Shown here one piece after another: positions 5,324-41,643 of a DNA stretch of 41,643 nucleotides; within the stretch, counting starts at the first letter, position 1; every line of letters begins with the position of its first letter. The notes under the pieces were generated by a model. The model was not told the DNA's origin. It did not search any database and was given only the letters and a program-made list of their open reading frames with translations. A program made the position numbers and the translations under genes. The stretch comes from Bacteroidales bacterium (GTDB lineage: Bacteria > Bacteroidota > Bacteroidia > Bacteroidales > P3), in contig JAKSML010000012.1 of the NCBI GenBank assembly GCA_024400665.1, forward strand, positions 1 to 41,643. The letters are read 5' to 3'.

Positions 5324-5482
5324 CTTGCGGCTTATGAGAATTGTGAGATGTGAGAGTCGTCGTGAGACATTTTATATTTTGCTAAATGAATATAGATTTT
5401 TGGTTAGAAGATCTGAAGATTCGAATGGCTCTCAAGCCTTCCAATCTCCAAATCTCCTAACCTTCCAATCTATTTTATGCCC

Positions 5483-8400
5483 TTACTTGAAGGCGTTCTC
5501 GGAGAGTCCTTTGCCGTTGATGCGGAGGTCGTCCATGTAGGAGGGCACTTCGCGGCCGAGGTACTTATCGACATAGAGTTTGGCGAGGTACTGGCCGAGC
5601 ATGAAACCGTGGCCGCGGAGGCCTGTGCAGAGTCCTACTTCGGGGTCGATGATGTAGCGTGGCTCGGTGTAGCGGCCTGCCCATACGGCGAGGAATCCGA
5701 CTTCGCGGAGGTTGGGGATCCATTCGGCGAAGACTTCGGAGACGATTTCGAGGAACTCGCGTGAGTTGTACTTGATGTTTTGTCGTGCTTCGTAGCTGTC
5801 GCAGTCGGGGGAGGCACAGCCGATGATCTGGCCGGTGTGGCCCCATTGCTGACCATAGACGGCGGAGAAGCCTTTGTAGTGGCGGCGGTCGATGATCATG
5901 TCGAGGGGGCCTCCGTTGGGTCCCATCATGGGGAGGCGGCGTGTGATGAAGGCTTGGTGCTTGACGGGGTAGAGGCTGATGTCGAGGTCGAGTTGGTCGA
6001 TGAATTTTTCGGCGCCCCAGCCCATGGCGTTGACGAAGTGGTCGCAGGTGTATTCGATGTATTGTCCTTCGTGGTTGCGGACGAGTGCGACGTAGTGGCC
6101 GCCTACTTTTTGGATGTGGAGGAGTTCGCAGTCTTCGTAGTAGCGGCCGCCGCATTGGGTGCCGATGGCGCGGATGTGGTCGATGACGCGGCCGGGTGTG
6201 GCCTGCCAGCAATCGCGTGTGATGAGGGCGTGGGAGTAGGTGTCGCGCGAGTCGTCCCAGAGGGGTGAGATTTCGCGTTTGAAGTCTTTGCGGTCGATCA
6301 TGTAGGCGTCGCTCCACGCGCGGGAGGCGTCGAGTGAGCGGTAGGTGGCGTCGTCGTGGACGAGGTTGACGTAGTGTGTGAGGCGGTAGTTGATGTTGGT
6401 CTGCTTCTGCATCTCCTTGAATATCTCGTGGTTGTGGACGGCGATGTCGGCGATGTCGGGGTTGGAGAAGGCTGGGCGTCCGCCGCCGATGCAGCGCCAG
6501 GAGGCTCCGCGGGCGTAGTTGATCATGACAGGGTGTTTGCCTGCTTCGGCGAAGTAGCGGAAGAGTGCGCTGCCGGCGATGCCGCCGCCGGCGATGAGGA
6601 CTTCGATGCTTTCGCGCCGCACGTCGTTCATCTTGGGGAAGACGAAGACTTCGTGGGCGCGAGGGTTGTAGAGGTCGCCGAGGGTGACTTGGTTGGAGAG
6701 GGGTGCGCGTGGGGTGGCGTCGCCGACGAGTTCGATGCCGTAGGAGCGGAGGATTTGGCGGGCGCGGGGTATGCAGCGTTTGCCGCGGCAGGGGCCCATC
6801 CCGAGGCGGGTGATGTGTTTGAGTTCATCGACTGAGATGGTTTTGCGGTCGCCGATGACTTCGAGGACGTGTTCGAGGCTGATGTCTTCGCAGTGGCAGA
6901 CGTAGGCTTCGCCAGCTTCGGCGTCGGCTTCGCTGAGCGGTTTCATCTGTAGCGGTTCGGGGTAGTTTTCTTTGATGATAAAGCCTTTGATATCGGGGTA
7001 TTGTATGCCTTCGTAGGTGGTTGTGACTTTTACGCGGGCGAGGTTGGTCTTGTTGGGTTTGCGGATGATTTTCTCGATGATGCCTTCGCCCACTTTGGTG
7101 CCGTTGTTGTCGATGAGGAATACTTGTGCGCCTTCGGCGGCTTCGTATTCGATGGGCAGGAAGCAGAGTTCTTTGGCGAGGTCGTAGCCGAAGATGGCGA
7201 GGCCGGGGCAGGAGGTGACGCACTGCATGCAGCCGATGCATTTGTCGTAATCGACCGTGGGGGTTGAGGAGGTGGTGGGCTTGGTGATGGCGCCTTGGGG
7301 GCAGGAGAAGGAGCAGGGGTTGCAGGCGAAGCCGTAGAGGCAGTCGGTCTGCACGAAGGGGCGCAGTTTCATGCGTTCCGGTGTGGGGAGGTTGGGTTTT
7401 TCGAGCAGGCGCAGGGGGCGCTGCTGGGAGTCGATGTATTGGCGGGAGATTTCAAGGTATTCGTCGTAGTTGTAGCGTATGCCGAGGGCTTGAGCCACTT
7501 CGTAGGCGGCTTGGCGGCCGCGGAGCACGGCGCTGGTGCCTTCGCCGATGCGGATGGCGTCGCCTACGCCGTAGGTGTTGTGGCCGAAGACTTCGCGGCC
7601 TTTGATGAGGAGCTGGTTGTCGGGGATGAGGCCGGTGCAGATGTTGATGATGTCGATGTCGTCGATAACTTGTTCGGTGCCGGATATGGGTTTGAAGTTC
7701 TCGCATTTGGCGATGACGGCGCCGACGATGCCGGTGCGGTCGGCATTGGGGATGGCGCGGAGGAGGGTGTAGCCTGTCATGATGGGGATGCCGAGGCGGC
7801 GGAGGCGGTTGGCCTGTACGGGGAAGCCGCCCTCGCGGGGCATGGCCTCGATGATGGCGCGGATATGAGCGCCGGCCTGCATGCCTTGGTATGAGGTGAG
7901 GTAGCCGATGTTGCCTGCCCCAACGGTGAGGACCCGTTTGCCGAGGAGGGTGTGTTCTTGGTTCATCATTTTTTGGAACACGGCGGCGGTATATACGCCT
8001 GGGACGTCGTCGTTTTCAAAGGTGGGCATGAAGGGCACGGCTCCTGTGGCGACGACGAGGTGTTCGGCGTCGATATAGGAGATGTCGCCGTTTTCGATGT
8101 TTTTGATGGCTACGCGTCGTCCTTCGAGGAGGTCCCAGACGGTGTTGTTGAGGAGGATGCCTTGGTGGTTGTCGCCTGCGAGGGTGCGTGCGATGTCGAA
8201 GCCGCGCATGCCGCCGAAGCGTCGTTCTTTTTCGAAGAAGAAGAATTGGTGGGTCTGCATGTTGAACTGGCCGCCGATGCGGGCGTTGTTGTCGATGACG
8301 ATGTTGTCGATGCCGAAGGTGTTGAGTTGTTCGCGGCAGGCGAGGCCGGCGGGGCCGGCGCCGATGATGGCGACCTGGGTTTTATAGACTTTGACTTCGC

Positions 8401-12954: not shown

Positions 12955-13075
12955 TGGTGAACTGTGATTAGTGAACTGTGATTAGTGAACTGACAATACA
13001 AACTGACGGCCTCCGCCCCACTCATTATTCATTACTCATTATTCATTATTAATTATTCATTACTCAGCCGGCTCC
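12955..13075. repeat. Repeat block of families C and A
   Basis: Family C runs (GTGAACTGTGATTAGTGAAC type) at about 12957-12995 are followed by a family A unit in reverse orientation (GGCCTCCGCCCCACTCATTA onward). The block ends inside the phosphatase gene, whose stop codon (13064-13066) and last residues it encodes. There is no separate gene here. Confidence 0.85.
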
Positions 13076-13729
13076 CACCTGGTCAATTAGAGAGAGTAGG
13101 GCGGGAAGGTGGTCGATGATGTGGTCGGGGGTGGCTGTGGCGAGTTGTTCGCGGCTCTGGTTGCCGTAGGTGACGCCGCAGGTGTGGCAGCCTGCGGCGG
13201 AGCCCATCATGAGGTCGTAGATGGTGTCGCCTACCACGAGGGTCTCGGAGGCTTGGAGGTTCATGCCTTGCAGGATGCTGAGGGCCAGGTCGGGTGCGGG
13301 CTTGGGGCGCAGCCTCTCGTCCTCGCCATACACCTGGCTGAGGGGGATGTGGCGGGAGATGCCGAGCTGCTCCACCAGCGGGTCGAGCGAGATGTGGTGG
13401 CGCGAGGAGGCGATGGCCATCACTATGCCGCGGCTCCGCAGGTCGGCGAGGGTGTGGAGGACGCCGTCGAAGGGGGTGATGTGGTCTAACGCCAGCAGGG
13501 GGAAGATGTCGCGATAGACCTGCGCGGCTTCCTCTATGCGGCTTTCGGGCGTAGTGGTGGCACGGCGGAAACACTCCGTGAGGGGCAGGCCGATAGTCTT
13601 CACGATGTCGGCAGGCGCGGCAGGGGCGAGGCCCATGCGCTCCAAGGTGCCCTGCACCGTGCGGACGATGCCCTCGCGGGTGTCGGCCAGGGTGCCGTCG
13701 AAATCGAAAAGGATATTCTTGTACTTCAT
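13064..13729 (-). CDS. HAD-family phosphatase, phosphoglycolate phosphatase-like
   Basis: The 221-residue protein has HAD motif I (FDFDGTLAD, nucleophile Asp near residue 9), motif II (IASSR), the lysine motif (RPKPAPD) and motif III/IV (VVGDTIYDLMMGSAAG). The cap sits between motifs I and II, as in phosphoglycolate phosphatase and related sugar-phosphate phosphatases. The most likely role is dephosphorylation of a small metabolite in the cytoplasm; the true substrate is not shown by the sequence. A GTG directly before the ATG (13732) is an alternative start. The last residues (DQVGAG) come from repeat DNA: GACCAGGTGGGAGCC resembles family E, and the TGA belongs to a TAATGA array. Confidence 0.82.
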   Translation of the reverse strand: MKYKNILFDFDGTLADTREGIVRTVQGTLERMGLAPAAPADIVKTIGLPLTECFRRATTTPESRIEEAAQVYRDIFPLLALDHITPFDGVLHTLADLRSRGIVMAIASSRHHISLDPLVEQLGISRHIPLSQVYGEDERLRPKPAPDLALSILQGMNLQASETLVVGDTIYDLMMGSAAGCHTCGVTYGNQSREQLATATPDHIIDHLPALLSLIDQVGAG

Positions 13730-13797
13730 CACCCCTATAACGCAAAAAAGGCGCCTTTATTGTCCCCCACGGCGAATATTCCTACAAAAAACGCCCA

Positions 13798-13908
13798 ACC
13801 TCCGCCGTGCATTGCTACTGCATAGCATCTGCATAGCTACTGGTATGCTATGCCATAGCAATGCAGTAGCAATGTGGTAGCAATGCAGTAGCAATGCACG
13901 GCGGAGGT
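13798..13908. repeat. Perfect 26-bp inverted repeat with GTAGCAATG tandem units
   Basis: The arms at 13798-13823 and 13883-13908 are exact reverse complements over 26 bp (beginning ACCTCCGCCGTGCATTGCTA). The 59-nt centre contains more copies and inversions of a GTAGCAATG / GCATAGC motif, so several nested folds are possible. It is unlike the AT-rich arrays around it. It may be a structured RNA, a recombination site or an insertion element without coding capacity. Confidence 0.8.
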
Positions 13909-14447: not shown

Positions 14448-15590
14448 ATGGATAGGAACGTCATCTTTCAGCATTTTTTTCAGCGTTTTGGCGCGCCTGC
14501 GGGGAGTCTCTTTATGGCTCCGGGCCGCGTGAATCTCATCGGCGAGCATACGGACTATAACGGCGGCTTTGTGTTTCCCGGGGCGGTGTGCCAGGGCATC
14601 ATGGCGGCGGTGCGTCCCAGCACGGGGAGCCGCATGGTGCGGGCTTACGCTATTGACTTGGACAGTTATTGCGAGTTTTGTCTGGACGACCCCGAGGGTC
14701 CTTCGCGGGTTGATTTCCGCTATCTCTACGGGGTGGCGCGGGAGTTGATGGGGCGCGGCGTGAGGGTGGAGGGCTTCGACACGGTGTATGCCGGCGATGT
14801 GCCTCTCGGCGCGGGCATGTCGTCTTCGGCAGCGTTGGAGTGCTGCTTTGCCTATGGCTTGAACAGGCTGTTCGGCGGAGGGCTGGACAGGATGGAGCTG
14901 GCGCTGGTGGGGCAGGCTACGGAGCATAGGTATGTGGGTGTGAACTGCGGCATCATGGATCAGTTTGTGTCTATGCACGGCAGGGAGGGGAGTCTTGTGA
15001 GGCTGGATTGCAGGAGCGGCGAGTTTGAGTATTTTCCTTGGCATCCCGAGGGCTACCGCCTGGTGCTGGTGAATAGTTGTGTGAAGCACGAGCTTGTGGG
15101 GTCGCCGTATAATGACCGCCGCAGAAGTTGCGAGCGTGTGGCTCAGCTTGCGGGGGTGGAGACGTTGCGGGATTGCACGTGGGAGCAGCTTGAGGCGCTG
15201 AGGCCGCAGCTTTCGGAGGAGGATTACCGCCGTGCCCGCTATGTGCTGGGCGAGGCGGACAGGGTGCTGGCGGTGTGCGACGCTTTGCAGCATGATGATT
15301 ACGAGCGGGTTGGGGAGCAGATGTATCTCACCCACGAGGGTTTGAGCAAGGATTATGAGGTGAGCTGCGAGGAGATAGACTTCCTCGTGGAGGTGGCGCG
15401 TCGCTGCGGCGTGACGGGCGCCCGCATCATGGGGGGCGGCTTCGGCGGCTGCACTATCAACTTGGTGCGCGACGACCGCTACGAGGCTTTCACCGCCGAG
15501 GTGGCTCCAGCATATAGGGCTCGCTTCGGCGTGGAGTGCAAGGTGATACCTGTGGTGATTGGAGAGGGAGCGAGATTAATTGATAATTGA
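14448..15590 (+). CDS. galK: Galactokinase
   Basis: The 380-residue enzyme phosphorylates alpha-D-galactose with ATP in the Leloir pathway. It has the GHMP kinase signatures: GRVNLIGEHTDYNGG near residue 24, the ATP-binding GAGMSSSAAL near 122, and GARIMGGGFGGCTI near 322. Length is normal. ATG at 14448 is chosen over a TTG three codons upstream because the TATCTTTG box fits it. The neighbour downstream is a GH97 enzyme of the retaining type, known for alpha-galactosidase activity, so galactose released outside could be fed to this kinase. The last four residues (LIDN) and the TGA are encoded by a family D repeat. Confidence 0.95.
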   Translation: MDRNVIFQHFFQRFGAPAGSLFMAPGRVNLIGEHTDYNGGFVFPGAVCQGIMAAVRPSTGSRMVRAYAIDLDSYCEFCLDDPEGPSRVDFRYLYGVARELMGRGVRVEGFDTVYAGDVPLGAGMSSSAALECCFAYGLNRLFGGGLDRMELALVGQATEHRYVGVNCGIMDQFVSMHGREGSLVRLDCRSGEFEYFPWHPEGYRLVLVNSCVKHELVGSPYNDRRRSCERVAQLAGVETLRDCTWEQLEALRPQLSEEDYRRARYVLGEADRVLAVCDALQHDDYERVGEQMYLTHEGLSKDYEVSCEEIDFLVEVARRCGVTGARIMGGGFGGCTINLVRDDRYEAFTAEVAPAYRARFGVECKVIPVVIGEGARLIDN

Positions 15591-15870
15591 TAATTGAGAA
15601 TTGATAATTAGGGCGGGAGCCGGTTTGAGTAATGAATAATTAATAATGAGTAATGAGTGGGGCGGTTGCCGGTTGAGTAATGAATAATTAATAATGAATA
15701 ATGAGTGGGGCGGTTGCCGGTTGAGTAATGAATAATGAAAAGATGTTTAGATATTCTGACATCCAGATATTCAGAATCTGAAAATCTCTTCATCTGAAAA
15801 TCTTTCTGATAATGAGTGGGGCGGGAGCCATTATTCATTATTCAATATTCAATATTCATTATTCACTAAT
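15591..15870. repeat. Repeat block between galK and GH97 gene
   Basis: Family D, then family A units with cores GGGCGGGAGCC and GGGCGGTTGCC, then a distinct 104-bp module (15721-15824), then mirror-image ATTATTCATTATTCAATATT and TTCACTATTCAC-like ends. The whole gap 15591-15896 has no gene and no clear promoter for the next gene, which may be read through from galK. Confidence 0.88.
15721..15824 (+). repeat. 104-bp exact duplicate, copy 1
   Basis: Positions 15721-15824 are identical to 21311-21414. The unique core (AGATGTTTAGATATTCTGAC, then ATCTGAAAATCT-type repeats) contains a short inverted repeat AGATATTCTGA / TCAGAATCT and is framed by family A ends (GAGTAATGAATAATG and GATAATGAGTGGGGCGG). 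It looks like a family A unit that carries an inserted cassette. Confidence 0.85.
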
Positions 15871-15896
15871 TCACAATTCACTATGTAATAATTGTT

Positions 15897-18109: not shown

Positions 18110-19333
18110 ATGAAAGCAAAATCTTATCGTCACATCGTCTTTCAGCTTTTCTTCGCCGTGATGTTCCTCATGCCTATGATGGCTTGCACCAAGCCTGAGG
18201 AACAACCCGCCGAACCCATCAACGATACTATCGTGAAGCCCGATATACCGCTCTGCGACAGCGTCTTCTTCTACGAACAGTGCCTTTACCGCCCCGGCGA
18301 CTACGGCTCGCAGAACTATCGCATCCCCGCCATCTGCACCCTGCCCGACGGCACCCTCCTCGCCGTGAACGACAAGCGCAAGTTCAATGAAGGCGACCTC
18401 CCGCAGGATATAGACATCGTCTGCCGTCGCAGCACCGACAACGGCCGCACCTGGAGCGAGCCGTCGAATATCATCGTCGGCACGGGCTACAAGCACGGCT
18501 ATGGCGACCCCGCCCTCGTCGTATGCCCCAATGGCGATGTGCTGTGCCTCTTCTGCGGTCTCAACGGCTTCTGGCAATCTACCGAGGCTGACCCGCAGGG
18601 CATCTTTGTCTCCCGCAGCACCGATGGCGGCGTGAGTTGGTCGCAGCCCGAGGACATCCACACCCTCGTGTGGGGCTCGCAGGCCCTCAACTCCGCGTGT
18701 CGCAACTACAAGGGCGGCTTCATCGCCTCCGGCAACGGACTGGTGCTGAAACGCGGCGAACACAAAGGCCGCATCATCCTCGTGGCAGCTCTCTGCCGCA
18801 AGAACGCCAATATTGCTGACAACTTCGCCGTCTATAGCGATGACAACGGCTACACCTGGCAGGTGTCTGACTGTGCCTTCTACGCTGGCGATGAGGCCAA
18901 GGTTGTGGAGCTGGTGGATGGCAGGGTGCTGATGAGTGTCCGCCAAAGCGGTCCCAGAGGTTATGCCATCTCGGAGGATGCGGGTGCCCATTGGGGCGCT
19001 TCATATACATGGCCAGAGATGACCACCAACGCCTGCAATGGCGAGCTTCTGCGCCTCAGCGCAGTTGATGAAGGCGGCGAGCGCAACATCTTGCTCCACT
19101 CCATCACCAACTCGATGAATCGCGAGAATGTGAGCGTCTTCATCAGCTACGACGAAGGCCGCACCTGGCAGGACCCTGTGACCCTCTGTGCAGGTCCCTC
19201 GGTCTATTCCTCCCTCACGCTCCAGCGCGACGGCACGATAGGCGCCTACATCGAGAAGAACCCCAACGGAGCCTGCGAGATGTGGTATCAGAACTTCACT
19301 TACGCCTGGCTCCTCAGTTTAATTGATAATTGA
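18110..19333 (+). CDS. Exo-alpha-sialidase (GH33) lipoprotein
   Basis: The 407-residue protein cleaves terminal sialic acid from glycans. It has a lipoprotein signal (MKAKSYRHIVFQLFFAVMF..MPMMAC, C26). The YRIP motif (R71) gives the first arginine of the carboxylate-binding triad. Five Asp-boxes follow: STDNGRTW (108-115), STDGGVSW, SDDNGYTW, SEDAGAHW and SYDEGRTW. GDLPQDIDIV holds the probable acid/base aspartate, SVRQSGPRG a second triad arginine region, and YSSLTLQRDGTIGAYIE the catalytic tyrosine region. It would act on the cell surface or in the periplasm. No sialic acid catabolic genes (nanA, nanE) are in the window. The final SLIDN and stop come from a family D repeat, so the native C-terminus may have been altered. 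Confidence 0.9.
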   Translation: MKAKSYRHIVFQLFFAVMFLMPMMACTKPEEQPAEPINDTIVKPDIPLCDSVFFYEQCLYRPGDYGSQNYRIPAICTLPDGTLLAVNDKRKFNEGDLPQDIDIVCRRSTDNGRTWSEPSNIIVGTGYKHGYGDPALVVCPNGDVLCLFCGLNGFWQSTEADPQGIFVSRSTDGGVSWSQPEDIHTLVWGSQALNSACRNYKGGFIASGNGLVLKRGEHKGRIILVAALCRKNANIADNFAVYSDDNGYTWQVSDCAFYAGDEAKVVELVDGRVLMSVRQSGPRGYAISEDAGAHWGASYTWPEMTTNACNGELLRLSAVDEGGERNILLHSITNSMNRENVSVFISYDEGRTWQDPVTLCAGPSVYSSLTLQRDGTIGAYIEKNPNGACEMWYQNFTYAWLLSLIDN

Positions 19334-19430
19334 TAATTGAAAATTGATAATTAGGCTGACGCATCCTTTGTATTGTCAATTCACTATTTCACTATTCACA
19401 ATTCACTGATCACAGGTCACATTTTACAGA
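19318..19430. repeat. Repeats D and C between sialidase and subtilase genes
   Basis: AATTGATAATTGATAATTGA (family D) overlaps the sialidase stop codon. After GGCTGACGCATCC and TATTGTCAATTC comes family C (ACTATTTCACTATTCACAATTCACTGATCACAGGTCAC). No promoter box is seen before the next ATG at 19441. Confidence 0.85.
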
Positions 19431-21066: not shown

Positions 21067-21689
21067 ATTGATGAATGAAAAATAAAGGAATAAAAAGTGA
21101 GAGCGGTGGTCGTCGTGCGGCAGCCCACCCTTTTATTCTCCGCTACACTATCGAAAAAGACAGGACTTTCTTCATAAATAATTCGCCTGTTCAAAAATAA
21201 ACGGCCCGGTGCATCCTTTCTCTTCTCTGTCCAAGTTCACGGTCGGGAGCACGCAGGGCCGTTTGAGTAATGAATAATTAATAATGAGTAATGAGTGGGG
21301 CGGTTGCCGTTTGAGTAATGAATAATGAAAAGATGTTTAGATATTCTGACATCCAGATATTCAGAATCTGAAAATCTCTTCATCTGAAAATCTTTCTGAT
21401 AATGAGTGGGGCGGAAACCATTATTCATTATTCAATACTCTTCAAATCTTCAATACATACAATAGACGTTTGACCATGCCCAAATATTCGCCAAAGCGTG
21501 AATTTTTTTCAAATTGAGAATTGGTCTGACGCGTCGGTTGTATTGTCAGATTCACAGAGAAGGTCAGCCCTATTCGATGGGCCGATTGAGTAATGAATAA
21601 CGAATTGTTAGTTCACAGATCACAGATCACAGATCACAATTCACAGATCACAGATCACAGTTCACAGATCACAGATCACAGTTCACTGA
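21067..21689. repeat. Long mixed repeat region between convergent genes
   Basis: No gene is visible in these 623 nt between the convergent subtilase and GH97 genes. In order: a family B-like half (GAATGAAAAATAAAGGAATAA), an inverted family F copy (21139-21177), family A units (21260-21315), the second copy of the 104-bp module (21311-21414), mirror arms, a unique piece (21445-21530) with CAAATATTCGCCAAAGCGTG, and a family C run of about ten ACAGATCAC / ACAGTTCAC units (21608-21690). This last run ends in the GH97 stop codon. Confidence 0.9.
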
Positions 21690-23771
21690 TCACTTGTCTT
21701 CTACGGGGCGGAAGATGACTGCGCAGCCGCCTCCTGGGGCGAGGTGCAGCTTCAGATTGGTGCGAGAGGTGACCTCTTGTTGTGTGATGCTGTAGGAGGT
21801 GGGATTGCTGCGGTAGTCGGCATCGGGACTGTCGGCGTAGAGGGTGGCGGTGAAGTGCTTGCGGCGGCCTTCGCGGCTGAGGAAGGTGAGCGGCACGGTG
21901 ATGTCGCGTGCCTCTTCGTTGGTGGCTGCGGCGAGGTAGTATGTGCTGTTCGTGCGGCGTGCGATGACGACAAACTGTCCGGGTTCGCCCTGCAGGGCTT
22001 CAGACCAGTCGTAGTCGGGGTTGAAGTCGCGGAAGAATTGGAACATGGGGTGGCCTTCGTAGTTCTCGATAAGGTCTGCGGCCATCACGAGCGGCGAGTA
22101 GAGGAGGACCCACAGCGACACTTGTTTGGCGAGGGTGGTGTGGACGCGGCATTCGCGGGCGTCCTTCTGGTTCCACTGCTTGCTGTCGGGGTACTTTCCA
22201 AGACACTTGTAGGTGATATCGAAGATGCCAGGGGTGTAGTCCATCGGGCCTGCGAGGAGGCGGGTGAAAGGCAGGGTGACCTGGTGCGAGGGTGCGTTGC
22301 CGTCGCTCCAGGCGTTCCACTCCATGCCGCGGGCACCTTCGCCGCTCATGAGGTTGGGGTAGGTGCGGCGCAGGCCTGTGGGCTTGATGGGTTCGTGGAC
22401 GTCGAGTGCGAGGCCGTATTGGGCGGCTGTCTGCATAGCGCGGGCGTAATGCTGCACACCGTAGCGCGAATGGTGTATCTCGCGGTTGGGGAAGCCTCCG
22501 GCATAGCCGGTCTTCACTGCGTGGACGCCGTGGTCGCTGCACCAAGCGTAGGCCTCCTCCATCTGGGTTTCGTAGTTGGGTATGTTGCCGCCCGTCTCGT
22601 GGTGGATGATGACCTCCACGCCCTTGCTCTTGGCGTAGGCGAGGACGCTGTCGATATCGAAGTCGGGCGCGGCATGGGTGAAGTCGAAGACCTGTGTGCC
22701 GCCCCACTGCTCCCAGCCTTGGTTCCAGCCTTCGAAGAGCACGGCGTCGATGTTGTTCGCGGTAGCGAAATCGATATAGCGGATGGCGTTAGCCGTGGTG
22801 GCGCCGTGACGGCTGTCGGGCACCCAGCTGTTGATGCCGAGGTGCATGCCCCACCATACGCCCACGTATTTCATGGGGCGGTACTGTTCGGGGTGGGGGA
22901 GGGCGCAGGGTTCGTTGAGACAGAGAATCATGTCGTTGTTGATGAGATCGACAGCTTTGCGGCCGATGGAGATGGTGCGCCATGAGGTGACGAGCTGCCG
23001 GCTCTCGATGTGATAGGCATACTGGATGGCGCTGTCGGCGCTGGGTGCCAGCCAAGTCTTGAAACAGGTCTTGGCCTGTTTGTCAGAATCGGTATTGCCG
23101 TGGTAGCCCGCCGTATCACGCACGAGGGTCATCTCGGGCATATCGCGGAGGTTGGCCTCGTGGATGGCGCCGTAGATGCCGTTTTTTAGGCGGAAGGTGA
23201 AGGGCGTGTTGGCGTCGGCAGTCTGCGAGATGGGCTGCTCGCGATAGGCGAACTCATAGCTCTCAAAGTTGGCAGGGATGCTCCAGCAGGTGCCGTCGGA
23301 GGGGAACAGGTAGCGGGTGTTGTCGCCGCGAAGGAGGCGCCCCGTGGTGTCGCTGAGGCGATACTCGTAGCGGAAAGCCACGCCGTTGTCGAACACGCGG
23401 ATGCGGATATCGAGGCTGTCGCCAGAAGTGACTCCATGGGTGCGCAGCAACATCTCTTTGTAGTGCTCCCGCACCTCTTTGCGTTCGCCCCACGGCAGAT
23501 GCCATGTAGTATCGACTTCGGGGCTGCGGAGGATGGTGTCGAGATGGTAGGCCTCACGGCTTTCGGCAACATCGAGACAGAGGTTGCGGACTTGGAGAAA
23601 CTGATGGTTATCGACTTTGATGTTGAGGGCCCATCCGCAAAATTGTGAGTAGTCGTCATAGTGGTAGTCGAACACATTTACACGGATATCGCCGTCTGGC
23701 GAGGTGACAATGTGGTGGTTGCATGCCGAGAGCAACAGTATTGCGGCGAGGAACGGAATTAAGCGTTTCAT
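21690..23771 (-). CDS. GH97 glycoside hydrolase lipoprotein, inverting (SusB) type
   Basis: The 693-residue protein has a lipoprotein signal (MKRLIPFLAAILLLSAC, C17), an N-terminal beta-sandwich, a TIM barrel (KYVGVWWGMHLG, VLFEGWNQGW, IHHETGGN) and a C-terminal beta domain. In contrast to the other GH97 at 15897, the nucleophile position is Gly (VKTGYAGG, about 419-426), while HEPIKPTG (E460) and SGEGARGMEW (E478, E484) supply glutamates in the positions used as general bases and acid by SusB. An inverting alpha-glucosidase is therefore most likely. Its ATG overlaps the stop of the upstream methylase gene (ATGA, 23768-23771), so the two are translationally coupled. Its stop lies in a family C repeat. 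Confidence 0.88.
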   Translation of the reverse strand: MKRLIPFLAAILLLSACNHHIVTSPDGDIRVNVFDYHYDDYSQFCGWALNIKVDNHQFLQVRNLCLDVAESREAYHLDTILRSPEVDTTWHLPWGERKEVREHYKEMLLRTHGVTSGDSLDIRIRVFDNGVAFRYEYRLSDTTGRLLRGDNTRYLFPSDGTCWSIPANFESYEFAYREQPISQTADANTPFTFRLKNGIYGAIHEANLRDMPEMTLVRDTAGYHGNTDSDKQAKTCFKTWLAPSADSAIQYAYHIESRQLVTSWRTISIGRKAVDLINNDMILCLNEPCALPHPEQYRPMKYVGVWWGMHLGINSWVPDSRHGATTANAIRYIDFATANNIDAVLFEGWNQGWEQWGGTQVFDFTHAAPDFDIDSVLAYAKSKGVEVIIHHETGGNIPNYETQMEEAYAWCSDHGVHAVKTGYAGGFPNREIHHSRYGVQHYARAMQTAAQYGLALDVHEPIKPTGLRRTYPNLMSGEGARGMEWNAWSDGNAPSHQVTLPFTRLLAGPMDYTPGIFDITYKCLGKYPDSKQWNQKDARECRVHTTLAKQVSLWVLLYSPLVMAADLIENYEGHPMFQFFRDFNPDYDWSEALQGEPGQFVVIARRTNSTYYLAAATNEEARDITVPLTFLSREGRRKHFTATLYADSPDADYRSNPTSYSITQQEVTSRTNLKLHLAPGGGCAVIFRPVEDK

Positions 23772-25486: not shown

Positions 25487-25668
25487 AAAATGAAGAATAA
25501 AGGAATAAAGAGTAAGGGGCAGGAGCCGGTTTGAGTAATGAATAATTAATAATGAATAATGAGTGGGCGGTTGCCGTTTTAATTGATAATTGATAATTGA
25601 TAATTGATAATTAGGGCGGGGCCGTCACAATTATCAATTATCAATTATCAATTCTCAATTAATTAATT
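25487..25668. repeat. Repeats B, A and D upstream of thiL
   Basis: A half family B unit (AATGAAGAATAAAGGAATAA), one family A unit with core GGGCGGTTGCC, and a family D palindrome whose arms AATTGATAATTGATAATTAG and ATTATCAATTATCAATT flank the core GGGCGGGGCCG (about 25575-25668). No gene lies in 25463-25833. Confidence 0.88.
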
Positions 25669-25833: not shown

Positions 25834-26886
25834 ATGGAACATCTCGAATATCAAGAGGGGCGCACAGAACTGGAGAGCCTGGGAGAATTTGCTTTGATTG
25901 ACCGTCTTACTGAGGGCTTTGGCCGCAGGCATAGGAGCACCGTGAAGGGTGTGGGGGATGATTGTGCCGTGCTGGGCACTGGCAAGAGGAAGACTGTGGT
26001 GACTACGGATATGCTTGTCGAGGGGGTGCATTTTGATATGACTTACACCCCGTTGCGTCACTTGGGATACAAGGCTGTGGCTATCAATCTGAGCGACATC
26101 TGCGCTATGAACGCCACCCCGAAGCAGATTTTGGTGAGTGTGGCTGTGAGCAACCGCTTCTCGGTGGAGGCTCTTGAGGAGCTGTATGCGGGCATCCGCT
26201 TGTGCTGCGAACGCTACGAGGTGGATCTCGTGGGCGGCGACACTTCTACGAGCCGTGTGGGCATGGTTATCTCTATCACCGCCATCGGCGAGGTGGAGAG
26301 TGACAGGATTGCATATCGCAGCGGTGCCAGGCTGCACGACCTCCTCTGCGTGAGCGGCGACTTGGGCAGCGCTTACAGCGGCTTGCTGGTGCTGGAGCGT
26401 GAGAAGGTGACTTTCCAGGCTAATCCTAATTTTCAGCCTGATTTGGAGAGCTACGACTATGTGCTGGAACGCTATCTGAAGCCTGAGCCTCGCGTGGATA
26501 TCGTGAAGTTGCTGGCGGAGAAGGAGATTGTTCCCACCTCGATGATTGATGTGAGCGACGGTCTCGCGAGCGAGGTGCTGCACCTCTGCAGGCAGTCGAA
26601 GTGCGGCTGCGAGGTGTATGAGGAGCGTCTGCCCATCGACTATCAGACGACGCGCGTCTGCTCCGAGATGAGCCAGAACATGCTGCCTGTGAGCAATGCG
26701 CTGAACGGCGGCGAGGACTACGAGCTACTGTTCACCATCAGCCAGAGCGACTATGAGAAGATCAAGGACAGCACCGAGGTCCATATCATCGGACATATCA
26801 CGGAGGAGGGGTCGCCCGCCGTGATGGTGACGCCGCAGAACACCACCATCGAGCTCCGCGCCCAAGGGTGGAAGCCGGTTGAGTAA
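25834..26886 (+). CDS. thiL: Thiamine-monophosphate kinase
   Basis: The 350-residue enzyme makes thiamine diphosphate from thiamine phosphate and ATP. AIR-synthase-fold motifs are present: GVGDDCAV (39-46), TTDMLVEGVHFD (57-68), a GGDTS loop near 140, and MIDVSDGLASE near 250. The ATG at 25834 is preferred; the open frame upstream (FYFLFINLFIY) only translates the repeat. The gene ends WKPVE-stop, where the sequence GTGGAAGCCGGTTGAGTAAT is the core and beginning of a family A repeat, so the last residues and the stop are repeat-derived. No other thiamine gene is near. Confidence 0.93.
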   Translation: MEHLEYQEGRTELESLGEFALIDRLTEGFGRRHRSTVKGVGDDCAVLGTGKRKTVVTTDMLVEGVHFDMTYTPLRHLGYKAVAINLSDICAMNATPKQILVSVAVSNRFSVEALEELYAGIRLCCERYEVDLVGGDTSTSRVGMVISITAIGEVESDRIAYRSGARLHDLLCVSGDLGSAYSGLLVLEREKVTFQANPNFQPDLESYDYVLERYLKPEPRVDIVKLLAEKEIVPTSMIDVSDGLASEVLHLCRQSKCGCEVYEERLPIDYQTTRVCSEMSQNMLPVSNALNGGEDYELLFTISQSDYEKIKDSTEVHIIGHITEEGSPAVMVTPQNTTIELRAQGWKPVE

Positions 26887-27060
26887 TGAATAATTAATAA
26901 TGAGTAATGAGTGGGCGGGAGCCGGTTTGAGTAATGAATAATTAATAATGAGTAATGAGTGGGGCGGTTGCCGGCGTTTGTATTGTCAATTCACTATTCA
27001 CAATTCACTACTTTGTATTGTCAGTTCACAGTTCACAAATCACAGTTCACTATTCACAAA
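26880..27060. repeat. Repeats A and C between thiL and isoaspartyl methyltransferase
   Basis: Two family A units (with cores GGGCGGGAGCC and GGGCGGTTGCC), then a long family C run (TTCACTATTCACAATTCACT, ATCACAGTTCAC) up to the A-run before the next ATG. A short frame through it on the plus strand is not considered a gene. Confidence 0.88.
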
Positions 27061-27066
27061 AAAAAG

Positions 27067-27762
27067 ATGGAACATAGACTCTCTCCCGACATTCCCAAAT
27101 ACCAGGCTTGGCGCCGTAGAATGGTCACGCAGCTGCGTGCTGAGGGCATTCATGACGAGAGCCTTCTGGCTGCTATGGAGAAGATTCCGCGGCATTGGTT
27201 CTGGAATGATACGCTGCTCGACAATCTGATATACGATATCAATACGGCTATCCAGATTGACTGCGGGCAGACGCTCTCGAAGCCTATCACCGTGGCACGC
27301 CAGACGCAGCTGCTCAACCTTCAGCCCATGCTCTCGGTGCTTGAGGTGGGCACGGGCAGCGGCTACCAGACTGCTGTCTTGTGCGAGATGGGTGCCCGCG
27401 TCTTCACCGTGGAGCGGCAGAACGACCTCTTTGTCCGCACTAAGAGTCTCCTCGCCACGCTGCATTATACGGCTCGCTGCTACTTGGGTGACTGCTCGCG
27501 CGGGTTGCCTGAGATGAGGGGTTATATGTTCGATCGTGTGCTTGTCACCTGCGGCGCCACGGAGGTGCCTCCTGTTCTGATGTCGCTGTTGAAAGTGGGC
27601 GGCATCATGGTCATCCCAGTAGAGAATGCGTCCGCTTCGGCGACGGGTGCTTCGCAGAAGATGTTGCGGATTTTCAAAGATGGAGAGTCGCCCGACGGGT
27701 GGCGCACTGAGGAGTGCGGCGATGCCTATTTCGTCCCCATGTTGAAAGGCCGCCAGTTCTGA
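27067..27762 (+). CDS. pcm: Protein-L-isoaspartate O-methyltransferase
   Basis: The 231-residue enzyme repairs isoaspartyl residues in damaged proteins with S-adenosylmethionine. GQTLSKPITVARQ (67-79) is the family's substrate-site motif, EVGTGSGYQTA (93-103) binds the cofactor, and FDRVLVTCGA with VGGIMVIPV are the later motifs. The start at 27067 follows AAAAAAAAG; the frame open to 26959 is repeat. Its TGA overlaps the first bases of the following palindrome (TTCTGAGTAATTGATAATT). Confidence 0.9.
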   Translation: MEHRLSPDIPKYQAWRRRMVTQLRAEGIHDESLLAAMEKIPRHWFWNDTLLDNLIYDINTAIQIDCGQTLSKPITVARQTQLLNLQPMLSVLEVGTGSGYQTAVLCEMGARVFTVERQNDLFVRTKSLLATLHYTARCYLGDCSRGLPEMRGYMFDRVLVTCGATEVPPVLMSLLKVGGIMVIPVENASASATGASQKMLRIFKDGESPDGWRTEECGDAYFVPMLKGRQF

Positions 27763-27763
27763 G

Positions 27764-27816
27764 TAATTGATAATTAGGGCGGGAGCCATCATTTTCAATT
27801 ATCAATTATTTTTTTT
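27764..27816. terminator. Repeat palindrome between convergent genes, likely two-way terminator
   Basis: AATTGATAATT (27764-27775 region) pairs with AATTATCAATT (27797-27807) around the core AGGGCGGGAGCCATCATTTTC; eight Ts follow on the plus strand. The pcm stop lies at its left edge and the SprT-like gene's stop inside its right arm. Structure and position fit a bidirectional terminator, though the stem is AT-rich. Confidence 0.55.
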
Positions 27817-28439: not shown

Positions 28440-28590
28440 AAGTAAGTTAAAAATGAAGAATAAAGGAATAAAGAGTGTAAATATAAAATGAAGGATAAAG
28501 GAATAAAGAGTGGGGCGGAAGCCGTTGTGCGGCAGCTCACTTTTTATTCTTTATTCATTAATTTTTTATTTATTCATTAATTAATTCCTC
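28440..28590. repeat. Family B repeats between SprT-like gene and small lipoprotein
   Basis: Two family B left halves in tandem (AATGAAGAATAAAGGAATAA and AATGAAGGATAAAGGAATAA) are followed by GTGGGGCGGAAGCCG and the right arm (CACTTTTTATTCTTTATTCA). The last part encodes the end of the small lipoprotein gene on the minus strand. Confidence 0.85.
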
Positions 28591-28785: not shown

Positions 28786-28819
28786 GCTTTGTATAACGCA
28801 GTCGGGTGGAAAATATTGT

Positions 28820-28866
28820 AATTAATAATTGATAATTAGGGCGGGAGCCATCATTTTCAATTAATA
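28820..28866. repeat. Family D palindrome at the CPBP gene end
   Basis: AATTAATAATTGATAATTAG, core GGGCGGGAGCC, then ATCATTTTCAATTAATAG. The right arm contains the CPBP stop codon (minus strand). Confidence 0.8.
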
Positions 28867-29729
28867 GGTGAGGTGAATAGGCGGTCTTTGGTGATGTGGC
28901 GGTCGAAGAGGAAGAGGAGGATGTCGAGGGAAAGGATGACGAGGATGCCGGCGAGGCCGGGGCCGCCGCAGAGGAGGTCGTTGAAGTTGGCGATGAAGAG
29001 GTTGGAGATGCCGATGGTGGCGTTGAGGGTGCCGTGCATGATGGCGGCGGGGATGAGGGAGCGGCTCTTGAGTCGGATGTATTGGATGAGAGGGGTGAGG
29101 GCGGCGCAGAAGAGCATCATCATGAAGACTCCGGCGACGGGGTGCTGAGGGTAGTTGTGCCCGAGGAGGATGAGGGGAGCGTGCCAGAGGCCCCAGATGA
29201 GTCCGATGAGGATGGCGGTGACGAGGAAGTTCTTGCCTCGGAATTGCTGGAGGAGGTAGCCGCGCCAGCCTATTTCTTCACCAAAGGCAAAGAGGGCGTT
29301 GATGGTGGCACCGGCGAAGAGGCCGCTGAGGAGTGTGATGAGGATGTAGAGGCTGGGGGTGAGGGCGACACTGGTCTGCTGGGACATCTGGGTGAGGGCT
29401 TGGGTGACGGTCTCGTTGTCGGGGTTGTAGCTCATGCCGGGCATCCAGGAGGAGACGACGAGGGTGAGGAGGGCGATGATGGGCATGAGGAGCCAGCCCA
29501 CGAACCACCAGCGGTTGACTTTCCAGCTGATGCCCAGACCTCGGAGCAGCGGCTCGTGATGGGCGGCCTGTAGGATGAGGACGGCGATGAGGGGGAAGAG
29601 CATGCAGAGGGTGGCGAGGGCCACGCCTGCGAAGCTTTGATAGCTGGTGCCGGTGAGTTTGAAGAGGGCGAATGCCACCCACATAAGGGCGTAGGTGATG
29701 GCGGTGTAGAGGAGGGTTTTCTTGTTCAT
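28857..29729 (-). CDS. CPBP-family intramembrane metalloprotease
   Basis: The 290-residue protein has about eight membrane spans and the abortive-infection/CAAX protease-like motifs: EEIGWRGYL (E151, E152, R156), WHAP (H183) and MHGTLN (H232, N236). These match the type II CAAX prenyl protease family; in bacteria members process peptides or act in immunity, but the substrate here is unknown. It starts an apparent block with the acyltransferase gene 48 nt upstream. The last residues IN and the TGA come from a family D repeat. Confidence 0.85.
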   Translation of the reverse strand: MNKKTLLYTAITYALMWVAFALFKLTGTSYQSFAGVALATLCMLFPLIAVLILQAAHHEPLLRGLGISWKVNRWWFVGWLLMPIIALLTLVVSSWMPGMSYNPDNETVTQALTQMSQQTSVALTPSLYILITLLSGLFAGATINALFAFGEEIGWRGYLLQQFRGKNFLVTAILIGLIWGLWHAPLILLGHNYPQHPVAGVFMMMLFCAALTPLIQYIRLKSRSLIPAAIMHGTLNATIGISNLFIANFNDLLCGGPGLAGILVILSLDILLFLFDRHITKDRLFTSPIN

Positions 29730-39950: not shown

Positions 39951-41270
39951 TTGAAGACCAAGCTCCCTCTGTTCATCGCTCGCCGCTATTTCTTCTCGCG
40001 TAAGCAGAAGACGGTTATCAACGTCATCTCGTGGGTGTCGCTCATTGGGGTCACTGTCTCCACGATGGCCCTCATTGTGGTGCTCAGCGTCTATAACGGC
40101 ATCGGCGACCTGACGAAGGGACTCTTCAACACTTTCGACCCTCCGCTCCTTGTGCAGCCCGCACAGGGCAAGACTTTCCGCACTTCCGATTTCGACTATA
40201 AGAGGCTCTGCTCGCTGCCCGGGGTGGCTGCGGTGTCGCAGCTTGCCGAGGAGAATGCCTGGATTACTTATAATCATAACGAGGCCATCGTCAGCCTGCG
40301 CGGTGTGGATACGCTCTATCCGCGCATCACAGGGCTGGACACGATGCTCTATGAGGGCACCTACCAGCTCAGCTACACGCCAGAGAATAGTGTGGCTGAG
40401 AACTGTGAAATAGTGAATAGTGAATTGACAAATGACCGCGCCAGCCACAATTCACAATTCACAATTCACAATTCACCAACCACGGTCTATTACCTCCTTT
40501 TTGGCGGCGACATATACTATAATCTCGGCATCCGCGAAGCTTCTAACCTCCCCGTCTCGGTGCATATCCCCAAGCGCGGCGTCGCCCTTGGTATGACTAT
40601 GGAGGAGGCTTTCAACACCGGCTACGCCATGCCTGGCGGCAATTTCACCATACAGAAGGATATCGACAACCTCTATGTCGTCAGCGACATAGCCTTTGTG
40701 CGCAGCCTCATGGACTACGCGTCCGACGAATGTACCTCGCTGGCCCTCTCTCTTGTGGAGGACGCCAATGTGGAGCGCACTAAGAGGGAAGTCCGCGAGC
40801 TCCTCGGTGACGGATTCACCGTCAAAGACCGCTTCGAGCAGAAGCCGCTGTACTATAAGGTGTTCCGCTCCGAACGTCTCGGCATCTACCTCATCCTCAC
40901 CCTCATCGTGCTCATCTCCACCCTCAACCTCATCGCCTCTCTCTCCCTCCTTGTGCTCGACAAGAAGCGTGATGCTGCCACCCTCCGCAGCCTCGGCATG
41001 ATGCCATCGGACATCCGGCGTACTTTCCGCATCGAGGGTCTCCTCATCTCCGCCTTCGGCGTGGCTGTGGGACTTATTGGAGGCTTTGTCGTGTGCCTGC
41101 TGCAGCAGCAGTTTGGCATTGTCAAGATGGGCGACAACTTCGTCGTCTCTGCCTTCCCCGTTTCCATGCGTGCCATCGACTTCCTGCTCACCTTTGTCAT
41201 TGTGATGAGCATCAGCTTGCTTTCCGTGCTGCTGGCTACGCGGCGTGCCGGCTATAACAGTGAGCAGTGA
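39951..41270 (+). CDS. FtsX-like permease, LolC/LolE type
   Basis: The 439-residue protein starts KTKLPLFIARRYFFSRKQKT and has a first helix at about 22-46, a periplasmic domain to about 315, and three C-terminal helices (315-340, 362-390, 410-430), the plan of LolC/LolE lipoprotein-release permeases. Motif SRKQKTVINVISW is close to that family. The ATPase LolD is not in the window. The start is a TTG that directly abuts a family D repeat; no ATG is near. Residues 150-178 (ENCEIVNSELTNDRASHNSQ and on) are encoded by a family C repeat, seemingly inserted in the periplasmic domain. Confidence 0.85.
   Translation: MKTKLPLFIARRYFFSRKQKTVINVISWVSLIGVTVSTMALIVVLSVYNGIGDLTKGLFNTFDPPLLVQPAQGKTFRTSDFDYKRLCSLPGVAAVSQLAEENAWITYNHNEAIVSLRGVDTLYPRITGLDTMLYEGTYQLSYTPENSVAENCEIVNSELTNDRASHNSQFTIHNSPTTVYYLLFGGDIYYNLGIREASNLPVSVHIPKRGVALGMTMEEAFNTGYAMPGGNFTIQKDIDNLYVVSDIAFVRSLMDYASDECTSLALSLVEDANVERTKREVRELLGDGFTVKDRFEQKPLYYKVFRSERLGIYLILTLIVLISTLNLIASLSLLVLDKKRDAATLRSLGMMPSDIRRTFRIEGLLISAFGVAVGLIGGFVVCLLQQQFGIVKMGDNFVVSAFPVSMRAIDFLLTFVIVMSISLLSVLLATRRAGYNSEQ
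40401..40484 (+). repeat. Family C repeat inside the permease gene
   Basis: AACTGTGAAATAGTGAATAG, then TGAATTGACAAATGACCGCG, then four CACAATT units. The same order (GTGAA runs, a GACAAT piece, GCG(T)CAGCC, then mirror-image TTCAC / TTCAAT runs) is present in gaps such as 39838-39935 and 19350-19420. The frame stays open, adding about 28 residues. Confidence 0.85.
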
Positions 41271-41643
41271 TCTGTGATTGATGAACTGTGAACTGTGGCT
41301 GGCGCATGATGGCTTCCGCTTTTTGGGGCGGCAGCATTCCTTATTTTGACCTTACTTACCCTTGATTTACCCTTGACTCATCCTTGACTTACTCTTGACT
41401 CATTCCTTTCTCACTTTTTTAGGGAACCAGGTGGGACTTGGAGTCATTTAGGGGCGGGGACCGGCGGGTGGTGTCTGGGGCTGAAAAATGTGGCAAATAA
41501 GAGGGTGCAGGTTAAGATATTTAACAAAGCGTCGTAAATAATCATAAAAAACAGGGGGTCTGGGTAAAAAAAAGGGTACTTTTGACTCTAGGGGAGTTCT
41601 ATAAATTAAAATAATGTTAATCATTTTGTTATGTCGGAAAATT
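41271..41643. repeat. Repeat-rich tail of the window with a promoter box
   Basis: Family C (GTGATCTGTGATTGATGAAC) begins at the permease stop. Next come GGGCGGCAGC, five 11-bp tandem units (CTTGACTTACT type, 41350-41404), one family E unit (ACCAGGTGGGACTTGGAGTC, about 41427-41450) and a family A-like core (GGGGCGGGGACCGG). A -7-like box TACTTTTG at 41577-41584 may drive a gene beyond the end of the window. No gene is visible. Confidence 0.75.

Follow-up and report, generated by a model that had tools for sequence, protein, structure and literature searches.

Dispersed palindromic repeats with heptamer arms at gene ends and within genes of a Bacteroidales genome

Introduction

Several genes in a contig of a Bacteroidales bacterium end inside repeats that recur between genes, and unrelated proteins encoded there share their last residues. 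This raises the question of whether such repeats rebuild the C-termini of the proteins that they meet, whether they are directed to gene ends, or whether gene ends are the places where they survive. A preliminary description of this DNA had put forward the first two as alternatives.

Repeats at gene ends or inside genes have been described in other bacteria, and the following is taken from the available text of the respective reports. Rickettsia palindromic elements (RPEs) are dispersed stem-loop palindromes of 105-146 bp that occur in spacers and in frame within conserved protein genes, where the peptide is tolerated (PMC2229807). Direct repeats of the heptamer TAACTGA are found in marine Beggiatoaceae, Cyanobacteria and five Bacteroidetes (MacGregor, 2015, PMC4679880). 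They provide stops for 13 upstream genes, in all three frames; in the genome studied, most of them precede start codons, and one set in Flexibacter litoralis is located within a purC gene, near its end (PMC4679880). The palindrome termini of GTAG/CGTC REPs (2013) often stop flanking ORFs, some REPs lie inside ORFs, including DNA repair genes, and CGTC REPs have been reported from Bacteroidetes among other phyla (PMC3733652). Finally, QMITE1 and QMITE2 of Coxiella burnetii overlap gene C-termini by a few bp, giving only the stop or some residues, and in no gene of known function did the authors see the 5' end affected (PMC5896051).

Materials and Methods

The window (the whole stretch of DNA analysed, 41,643 nt) is the entire contig C4 of a MAG of 1,541,559 bp in 46 contigs, which is 64.67% complete. 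Counts within the genome were made on a sample of 441,643 bp, consisting of twenty 20-kb stretches and the window and corresponding to 29% of the 65%-complete MAG. The 326 genes in this sample were called by a home-made codon-model caller with at least one omission, a TonB-like gene at 1044. For the stop-codon test, repeated DNA was defined as 11-mers occurring at least 6 times in the 441,643 bp.

Each search for homologues covered 41 genomes, own genome included. Homologues of galK were taken from a set of relatives, those of thiL, SprT, HAD, sialidase, CPBP, GH97 and permease from searches within the genus, and those of pcm from the thiL loci. Nine proteins were compared at the C-terminus with 11-29 homologues each; the TonB-dependent receptor and the 28570 ORF were left out. 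The BipA-like, YgiQ-like, TcdA-like, sulfatase (LTA-synthase)-like, alpha-2-macroglobulin-like and RapZ/APH-like proteins and the MurF-like protein of G002 were named by eye from their translations, without a family hit; the FolC-like protein, with Mur ligase domains only in Pfam, was also named by eye.

Results

Heptamer arrays are dispersed through the genome

Heptamer periodicity was pronounced in the window, with 112 scan windows (21 comparisons, lag-7 identity of at least 90%) compared with 0 at lags 5, 6, 8 and 9. At threshold 12, 81 lag-7 arrays were found in the 441,643 bp, as opposed to 0, 0 and 0 in three local shuffles; the same scan gave fewer arrays at other lags (20 at lag 8, 11 at lag 9, 25 at lag 11 and 8 at lag 12). 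The arm sequence AATTGATAATTGATAATTAG occurred at 77 sites in the genome when up to 2 mismatches were allowed, compared with 1 for the reversed control. The window is dense in arrays, holding 34 of 91 within 9.4% of the sampled DNA. Tandem TAACTGA units were absent from the lag-7 arrays listed, which are of the AATTGAN, TGAATAA, TGTGAAC and TTAACTC types.

Repeats supply the stop codons of neighboring genes

The features of the window on which the following sections draw are listed below.

13019..13067, minus strand: HAD arm, in which the HAD phosphatase gene (13064-13732) has its stop
15574..15611, plus strand: galK left arm, stop-bearing AATTGAT heptamers, supplying galK (14448-15590) with its final residues LIDN and its stop
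15612..15871, unstranded: remainder of the island downstream of galK, with left arms (TGAGTAATGAATAAT), GC-rich linkers and the closing right arm CATTATTCATTATTCAATATTC
19317..19354, plus strand: sialidase left arm, source of the LIDN-stop end of the sialidase-like gene (18110-19333)
21605..21695, minus strand: GH97 array, TGTGATC/TGTGAAC heptamers, in which the GH97 gene (21690-23771) has its stop
25575..25664, unstranded: most complete palindrome of the window, with four AATTGAT heptamers, a GC-rich core and AATTATC/AATTCTC heptamers; fold z -11.51
26880..26913, plus strand: thiL left arm (TGAGTAATGAATAAT), supplying thiL (25834-26886) with its stop
27763..27808, unstranded: small palindrome in the convergent pcm/SprT spacer; fold z -4.98 (27757-27808)
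28480..28582, unstranded: AT-rich repeat, giving the stop of the 28570 ORF (71 aa, putative gene)
28815..28866, unstranded: CPBP-end palindrome, an arm of which gives IN-stop of the CPBP/Rce1-like gene (28857-29729); fold z -2.96
40386..40484, plus strand: palindromic segment inside the permease gene, NSVAENCEIVNSELTNDRASHNSQFTIHNSPTT, in frame and read stop-free; fold z -5.53
41260..41301, plus strand: permease-end heptamers of TGTGATC type, in which the FtsX/MacB-like permease gene (39951-41270) has its stop

It had been claimed that the stop codons of eleven genes lie inside repeats. This was confirmed for nine, galK, the sialidase, SprT-like, CPBP, thiL, HAD, permease and GH97 (21690) genes and the 28570 ORF, in which all three stop bases fall into repeated 11-mers and the repeat covers 3 to 16 nt of the end of the CDS, stop counted. 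It did not apply to pcm, where the repeat starts at the second base past the stop, or to the TonB-dependent receptor (8926), where it starts at the sixth. Gene 29778, absent from the earlier list, likewise has its stop within repeated 11-mers.

The translations bear out that three proteins, those of galK, the sialidase and the SprT-like gene, end in IDN-stop, an ending that follows from the AATTGAT heptamer, one frame of which reads ATT GAT AAT TGA. The small palindrome at 27763..27808 provides this end for the SprT-like gene (ending at 27795) and starts just past the native stop of pcm (ending at 27762). Identical 38-nt copies belonging to the small palindrome are present at 27764-27801 and 28826-28863, about 1 kb apart, flanking the SprT-like gene. 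The further claim that the stop-rich strand closes every frame at once also held: among the 15 arrays that overlap or abut a stop, 14 were richer in stop-bearing frames along the gene direction, 1 was equal in both directions and 0 favored the opposite one. Since the stop-rich strand ends all frames, a repeat that crosses a gene end supplies the stop codon.

Complete copies are palindromes with a fixed order of arms

On either strand, the complete form reads from a stop-bearing heptamer arm through a GC-rich core into a stop-poor complementary arm. The first-arm heptamers AATTGAT, AATTGAG, TGAATAA and TGTGAAC contain no or little C, and the second arm no or little G. Neighboring arms at most 60 nt apart were ordered left-right in 17 cases and right-left in 0, with 23 left-left and 4 right-right pairs, all others involving neither type; a stricter threshold gave 13 left-right and 0 right-left. 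Complete copies are palindromes able to fold into a long stem-loop, as are RPEs. Their arms are inverted repeats with approximate termini and may correspond to the terminal inverted repeats of MITEs. Of the 89 islands in the own-genome sample, 18 contain the two arms and 44 only one. A complementary remnant within 80 nt was recognized for 8 of these 44, each time on the expected side and never on the other, while 36 have no recognizable partner. As the remnants lie on the expected side, the single arms probably represent partial copies. In five of six stretches the DNA fold z values were -11.5, -5.5, -5.0, -3.0 and -2.9, the galK-side stretch alone reaching -1.6.

As a consequence of the palindrome, a gene that enters a complete element, from whichever side, meets a stop-bearing arm, and a gene that starts beyond it leaves the other arm. 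Fourteen arrays lay no more than 15 nt from a start; 12 of them were stop-bearing on the other strand and 2 equally on both.

Native C-termini are largely retained

The alignment of the nine proteins with their homologues spoke against the proposed remodelling of C-termini, as the conserved cores were intact and the medians of the end length ranged from -4 to +5 residues. The medians, own minus homologue, were +1 for galK (n=18), 0 for thiL (29), -1 for pcm (29), +2 for SprT (29), +5 for HAD (28), +3 for the sialidase (23), -4 for CPBP (11), +2 for GH97 (28) and +4 for the permease (29); some homologue rows are paralogous or misaligned, e.g., two GH97 rows at -349. GalK itself ends GARLIDN and its relatives GARKL, GARRVK or GARKLKGEN; ThiL ends AQGWKPVE and its relatives AQGWKK, AQGWKTQNS or AQGWGRIES. 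In three relatives (L023, L027 and L031), other heptamers were seen by eye at or just past the thiL stop, so that repeats seem to have arrived at this site more than once.

A general remodelling, in which insertions remove native C-terminal segments and create new functional ends, would fit the tails such as IDN that unrelated proteins share, and CPBP is shorter than 9 of the 11 relatives compared. With the cores complete, it is nevertheless largely refuted for these nine genes and we consider it extremely unlikely overall.

Stop codons lie in repeats no more often than random intergenic triplets

Counted over the 441,643-bp sample, stops in repeats were not above random intergenic placement, contrary to the suggestion that the repeats are targeted to gene ends. 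Repeated 11-mers contained the stop codons of 39 of 326 genes (12.0%), compared with 351 of 2,309 random intergenic triplets (15.2%); for start codons the count was 29 of 323, and for random coding triplets 524 of 8,696. Most arrays (85 of 91) were located between two called genes, and 3, in two genes, were wholly inside. Arrays touched 15 of 74 stop boundaries (14 by overlap, 1 by abutting) and 1 of 96 start boundaries. Outside the genes, at a distance of 1-15 nt, no excess was found on the stop side, with 6 arrays compared with about 8.5 expected from uniform placement; the start side had 13, with about 9.1 expected. The 51 islands in spacers were spread over 45 of 317 spacers, 5 falling into the 37 convergent spacers with two gene ends, 40 into the 242 tandem spacers with one and 6 into the 38 divergent spacers with none; per base, tandem spacers were richest.

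A model of uniform insertion predicted 9.4-12.6 islands at stops if a coding tail of 18-30 nt is tolerated, and 4.8-8.5 if the tail is 6-15 nt; 15 were seen. There may therefore be a mild excess of islands at gene ends over the tolerance model. Targeting, e.g., by a transposase that recognizes terminators or stop contexts, or retention of the repeats as 3'-end signals would account for this excess and for the contrast between stop and start boundaries, and REPs elsewhere lie mainly downstream of genes according to the available text of PMC3733652. It would not account for the lack of enrichment just beyond the stops, for islands being no commoner where a spacer has more gene ends, for the stop codon count set against intergenic triplets, or for the copies that occur within genes, and we regard it as unlikely. 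Taken against the models, the counts place the stop overlap close to what random insertion of a sequence with a built-in stop would give.

Copies are read in frame inside genes

The in-frame copy in the permease (39951) occupies about residues 144-177, and the matches of many relatives are split around residues 143-177. Other genes of the genome encode a peptide similar to this insert. In the permease, the loop varies in length regardless, with 108 nt between the anchors here and 3-105 nt (median 39) in 29 relatives. Further in-gene copies of the own genome were found in CinA, in a UvrD-like helicase, in NAD kinase, in a FolC-resembling protein of the Mur ligase type and in one protein without a Pfam hit; a sulfatase-like protein carries two copies, and a GH106 rhamnosidase two or more.

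Comparison with PDB relatives places unaligned stretches at such copies, of 38 residues compared with 8 in CinA, 44 compared with 4 in the UvrD-like protein and 67 compared with 10 in NAD kinase; in LeuRS of another genome (G041), gaps at the insert total 23 residues. The CinA relatives in named genomes are Bacteroidales MAGs, the best with 83% identity. Across 39 aligned CinA proteins, extra segments of at least 6 residues occurred in one loop in 13, own included, and 21 lacked an insert of 5 or more residues anywhere. Judged by eye, the inserts of the own protein and of L237, L248 and L266 are of the heptamer-palindrome type. The L266 protein carries a second segment within the element, and in L263 and L270 a different palindrome, of the CCCTCTCC...GGAGAGGGG type, lies in frame in the loop.

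Of 131 arms matching AAAATTGAAAATKSAAAATTGA in 14 genomes chosen by us, 124 keep the central TGA and 7 lack it. Six of these seven are in frame in long frames that look gene-like by eye, and the seventh is not, so stop-free arms of the AAAATTGAAAATKSAAAATTGA form are nearly confined to genes. Since copies also lie in frame within genes, gene ends look like sites at which stop-bearing copies survive rather than like targets. At about 5325-5513 of another contig (G000:C46), long open frames, including one of 437 aa, run along the stop-free strand of heptamer arrays, and a gene caller could mistake them for genes.

Related copies occur across the genus and in other Bacteroidales

The best-defined copy, 83 nt long, lies in the BipA-like gene of G015 and is identical to a copy in PurL of G012, a second species; the most complete palindrome of the window (25575-25664) matches this element at 77%. 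Used as a query, the 83-nt sequence matched 36 of 59 genomes of the genus at E 1e-8 or better, and many of the listed matches were full-length. We classified 45 matching loci, 25 supplied by the search and 20 that we picked among its higher-ranking hits, and dropped 7 partial matches. Of the 38 full-length copies, 21 lay in frame between coding flanks, 9 ended a gene inside the element, with tails such as LRIEN and LKVEN, and 8 did neither. With a stop-free query from inside a gene and high-ranking loci, 21 of 38 is an upper value for the in-gene share, which was 3 of 91 arrays (in two genes) in the own-genome sample. In-gene copies may have lost their stop after insertion, or stop-free copies alone may persist within genes; the identical copies in two genes favor a stop-free version that spreads.

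These data bear on the proposal that polymerase slippage at short native gene-end sequences produces arrays on the spot, without movement, and that the single arms are arrays of this kind. The unit number indeed varies, 44 of 89 islands are single arms, and the galK end of one relative, AAATTGTGATGA, is already arm-like. On the other hand, slippage does not explain 77 near-identical arms in one genome, the common GC-rich cores, the left-right order wherever both arms exist, or an identical 83-bp copy in two unrelated genes. As these four observations require copying between sites, slippage as the sole cause was rejected and appears very improbable, though it can still account for changes in length.

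With the 83-nt element as a query, phage records gave no match at E 1e-3. Eight plasmid records in PLSDB matched, four of Bacteroides finegoldii and four of Parabacteroides distasonis. Two of the four records opened, NZ_OY725925 and NZ_OY725749 (plasmid-labelled, B. finegoldii and P. distasonis), contain dxs and murF-alr, and rbfA; since these are housekeeping genes, the plasmid-labelled records are probably chromosomal contigs. The MurF-alanine racemase fusion of B. finegoldii carries an in-frame copy at residues 77-105, a putative insertion, as PDB matches begin at or after the end of the copy. An FtsX-like permease of P. distasonis ends AKKLKIEN-stop inside a copy. In a collection of viral contigs, 19 stretches (L400-L418) contain the exact right arm CAATTCTCAATTCTCAATTCTCAATT, in phage or host DNA.

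Discussion

We consider it probable that the repeats derive, as whole and partial copies, from a palindromic, heptamer-armed element that is dispersed through the genome, and that their distribution reflects the different survival of stop-bearing and stop-free copies. Copies, of about 83 bp in the best-defined form, would come to lie at many places without sign of gene-end preference, presumably by transposition or templated copying. Stop-bearing copies would survive in spacers and over the final few codons of a coding sequence, where translation would stop immediately in the first arm, leaving tails like IDN, IEN or VEN. Within genes, copies would persist as in-frame peptides of about 25-60 residues if their first arm is stop-free in the frame used. 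The filter would be purifying selection, and the inserted peptides, predicted from the DNA, are presumably translated.

Among the known systems, RPEs come closest by description in the available text of PMC2229807. The element resembles them as dispersed palindromes with stem-loops, located in spacers and in frame within conserved protein genes, the latter seen here in the PDB comparisons and in 21 of 38 copies obtained with a biased query. Unlike RPEs, whose range of 105-146 bp it falls below, it has a Bacteroidales host, a length of about 83 bp, heptamer arms and a first arm that is usually stop-bearing, and many copies are one-armed; membership in RPE proper is not claimed. We would rather regard it as a variant of the protein-coding palindrome kind, to be set beside RPEs by description and new to the literature searched. 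No description of heptamer-armed protein-coding palindromes in Bacteroidales was found in that literature (subscription journals and preprints apart, and in the text available), and three insert-peptide strings were likewise absent from it.

As to the gene-end effect itself, analogy with TAACTGA heptamers, GTAG REPs and QMITEs indicates that it is ordinary for a stop-bearing repeat. In the accessible text of the respective reports, the TAACTGA repeats are heptamer direct repeats like ours, but the heptamer is a different one and they are not described as GC-cored palindromes (PMC4679880). GTAG/CGTC REPs are likewise palindromes that give the stops of flanking ORFs, with some copies within ORFs, but they prefer 3'-end neighborhoods and the arms of the present element are heptamer arrays (PMC3733652); neither a GTAG nor a CGTC tag was seen by eye on either strand of the 83-nt copy. 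QMITEs also overlap gene C-termini and give the stop or a few residues, but they are MITEs of 150-400 bp with another sequence and short direct repeats at their ends (PMC5896051).

More broadly, it is likely that Bacteroidales, culturable gut species included, possess protein-coding palindromes of their own, independent of those of Rickettsiales. Their stop-bearing copies would fill spacers and cap genes, and a stop-free sublineage would spread from gene to gene, decorating essential enzymes (BipA-like, PurL, LeuRS, NAD kinase, MurF-like) with closely similar in-frame peptides. Gut bacteria, with the apparently culturable species B. finegoldii and P. distasonis, would thereby offer a second setting for palindromes that enter proteins in frame. 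If this is true, questions raised by RPEs, i.e., how they move, whether the inserts are neutral and how stops are avoided, become experimentally accessible. For annotators of these genomes, common C-terminal tails (IDN, IEN) and loop peptides (NSQFSILNSQL) may be repeat-derived and need not indicate homology.

Other repeats of this genome are of different kinds. Inverted repeats on CGGATTTGCAATCCG-like motifs, at 153-207, 684-738 and 774-828 of the window, are unlike the heptamer palindromes. Dispersed tandem arrays of 11-nt units (TAGCTCCGCCT, TGCATTGCTAC) form a separate class, with 25 at threshold 12 in 441 kb; they are located at 13798-13908 and 41356-41400 of the window, at G000:C1:39113-39157 and elsewhere.
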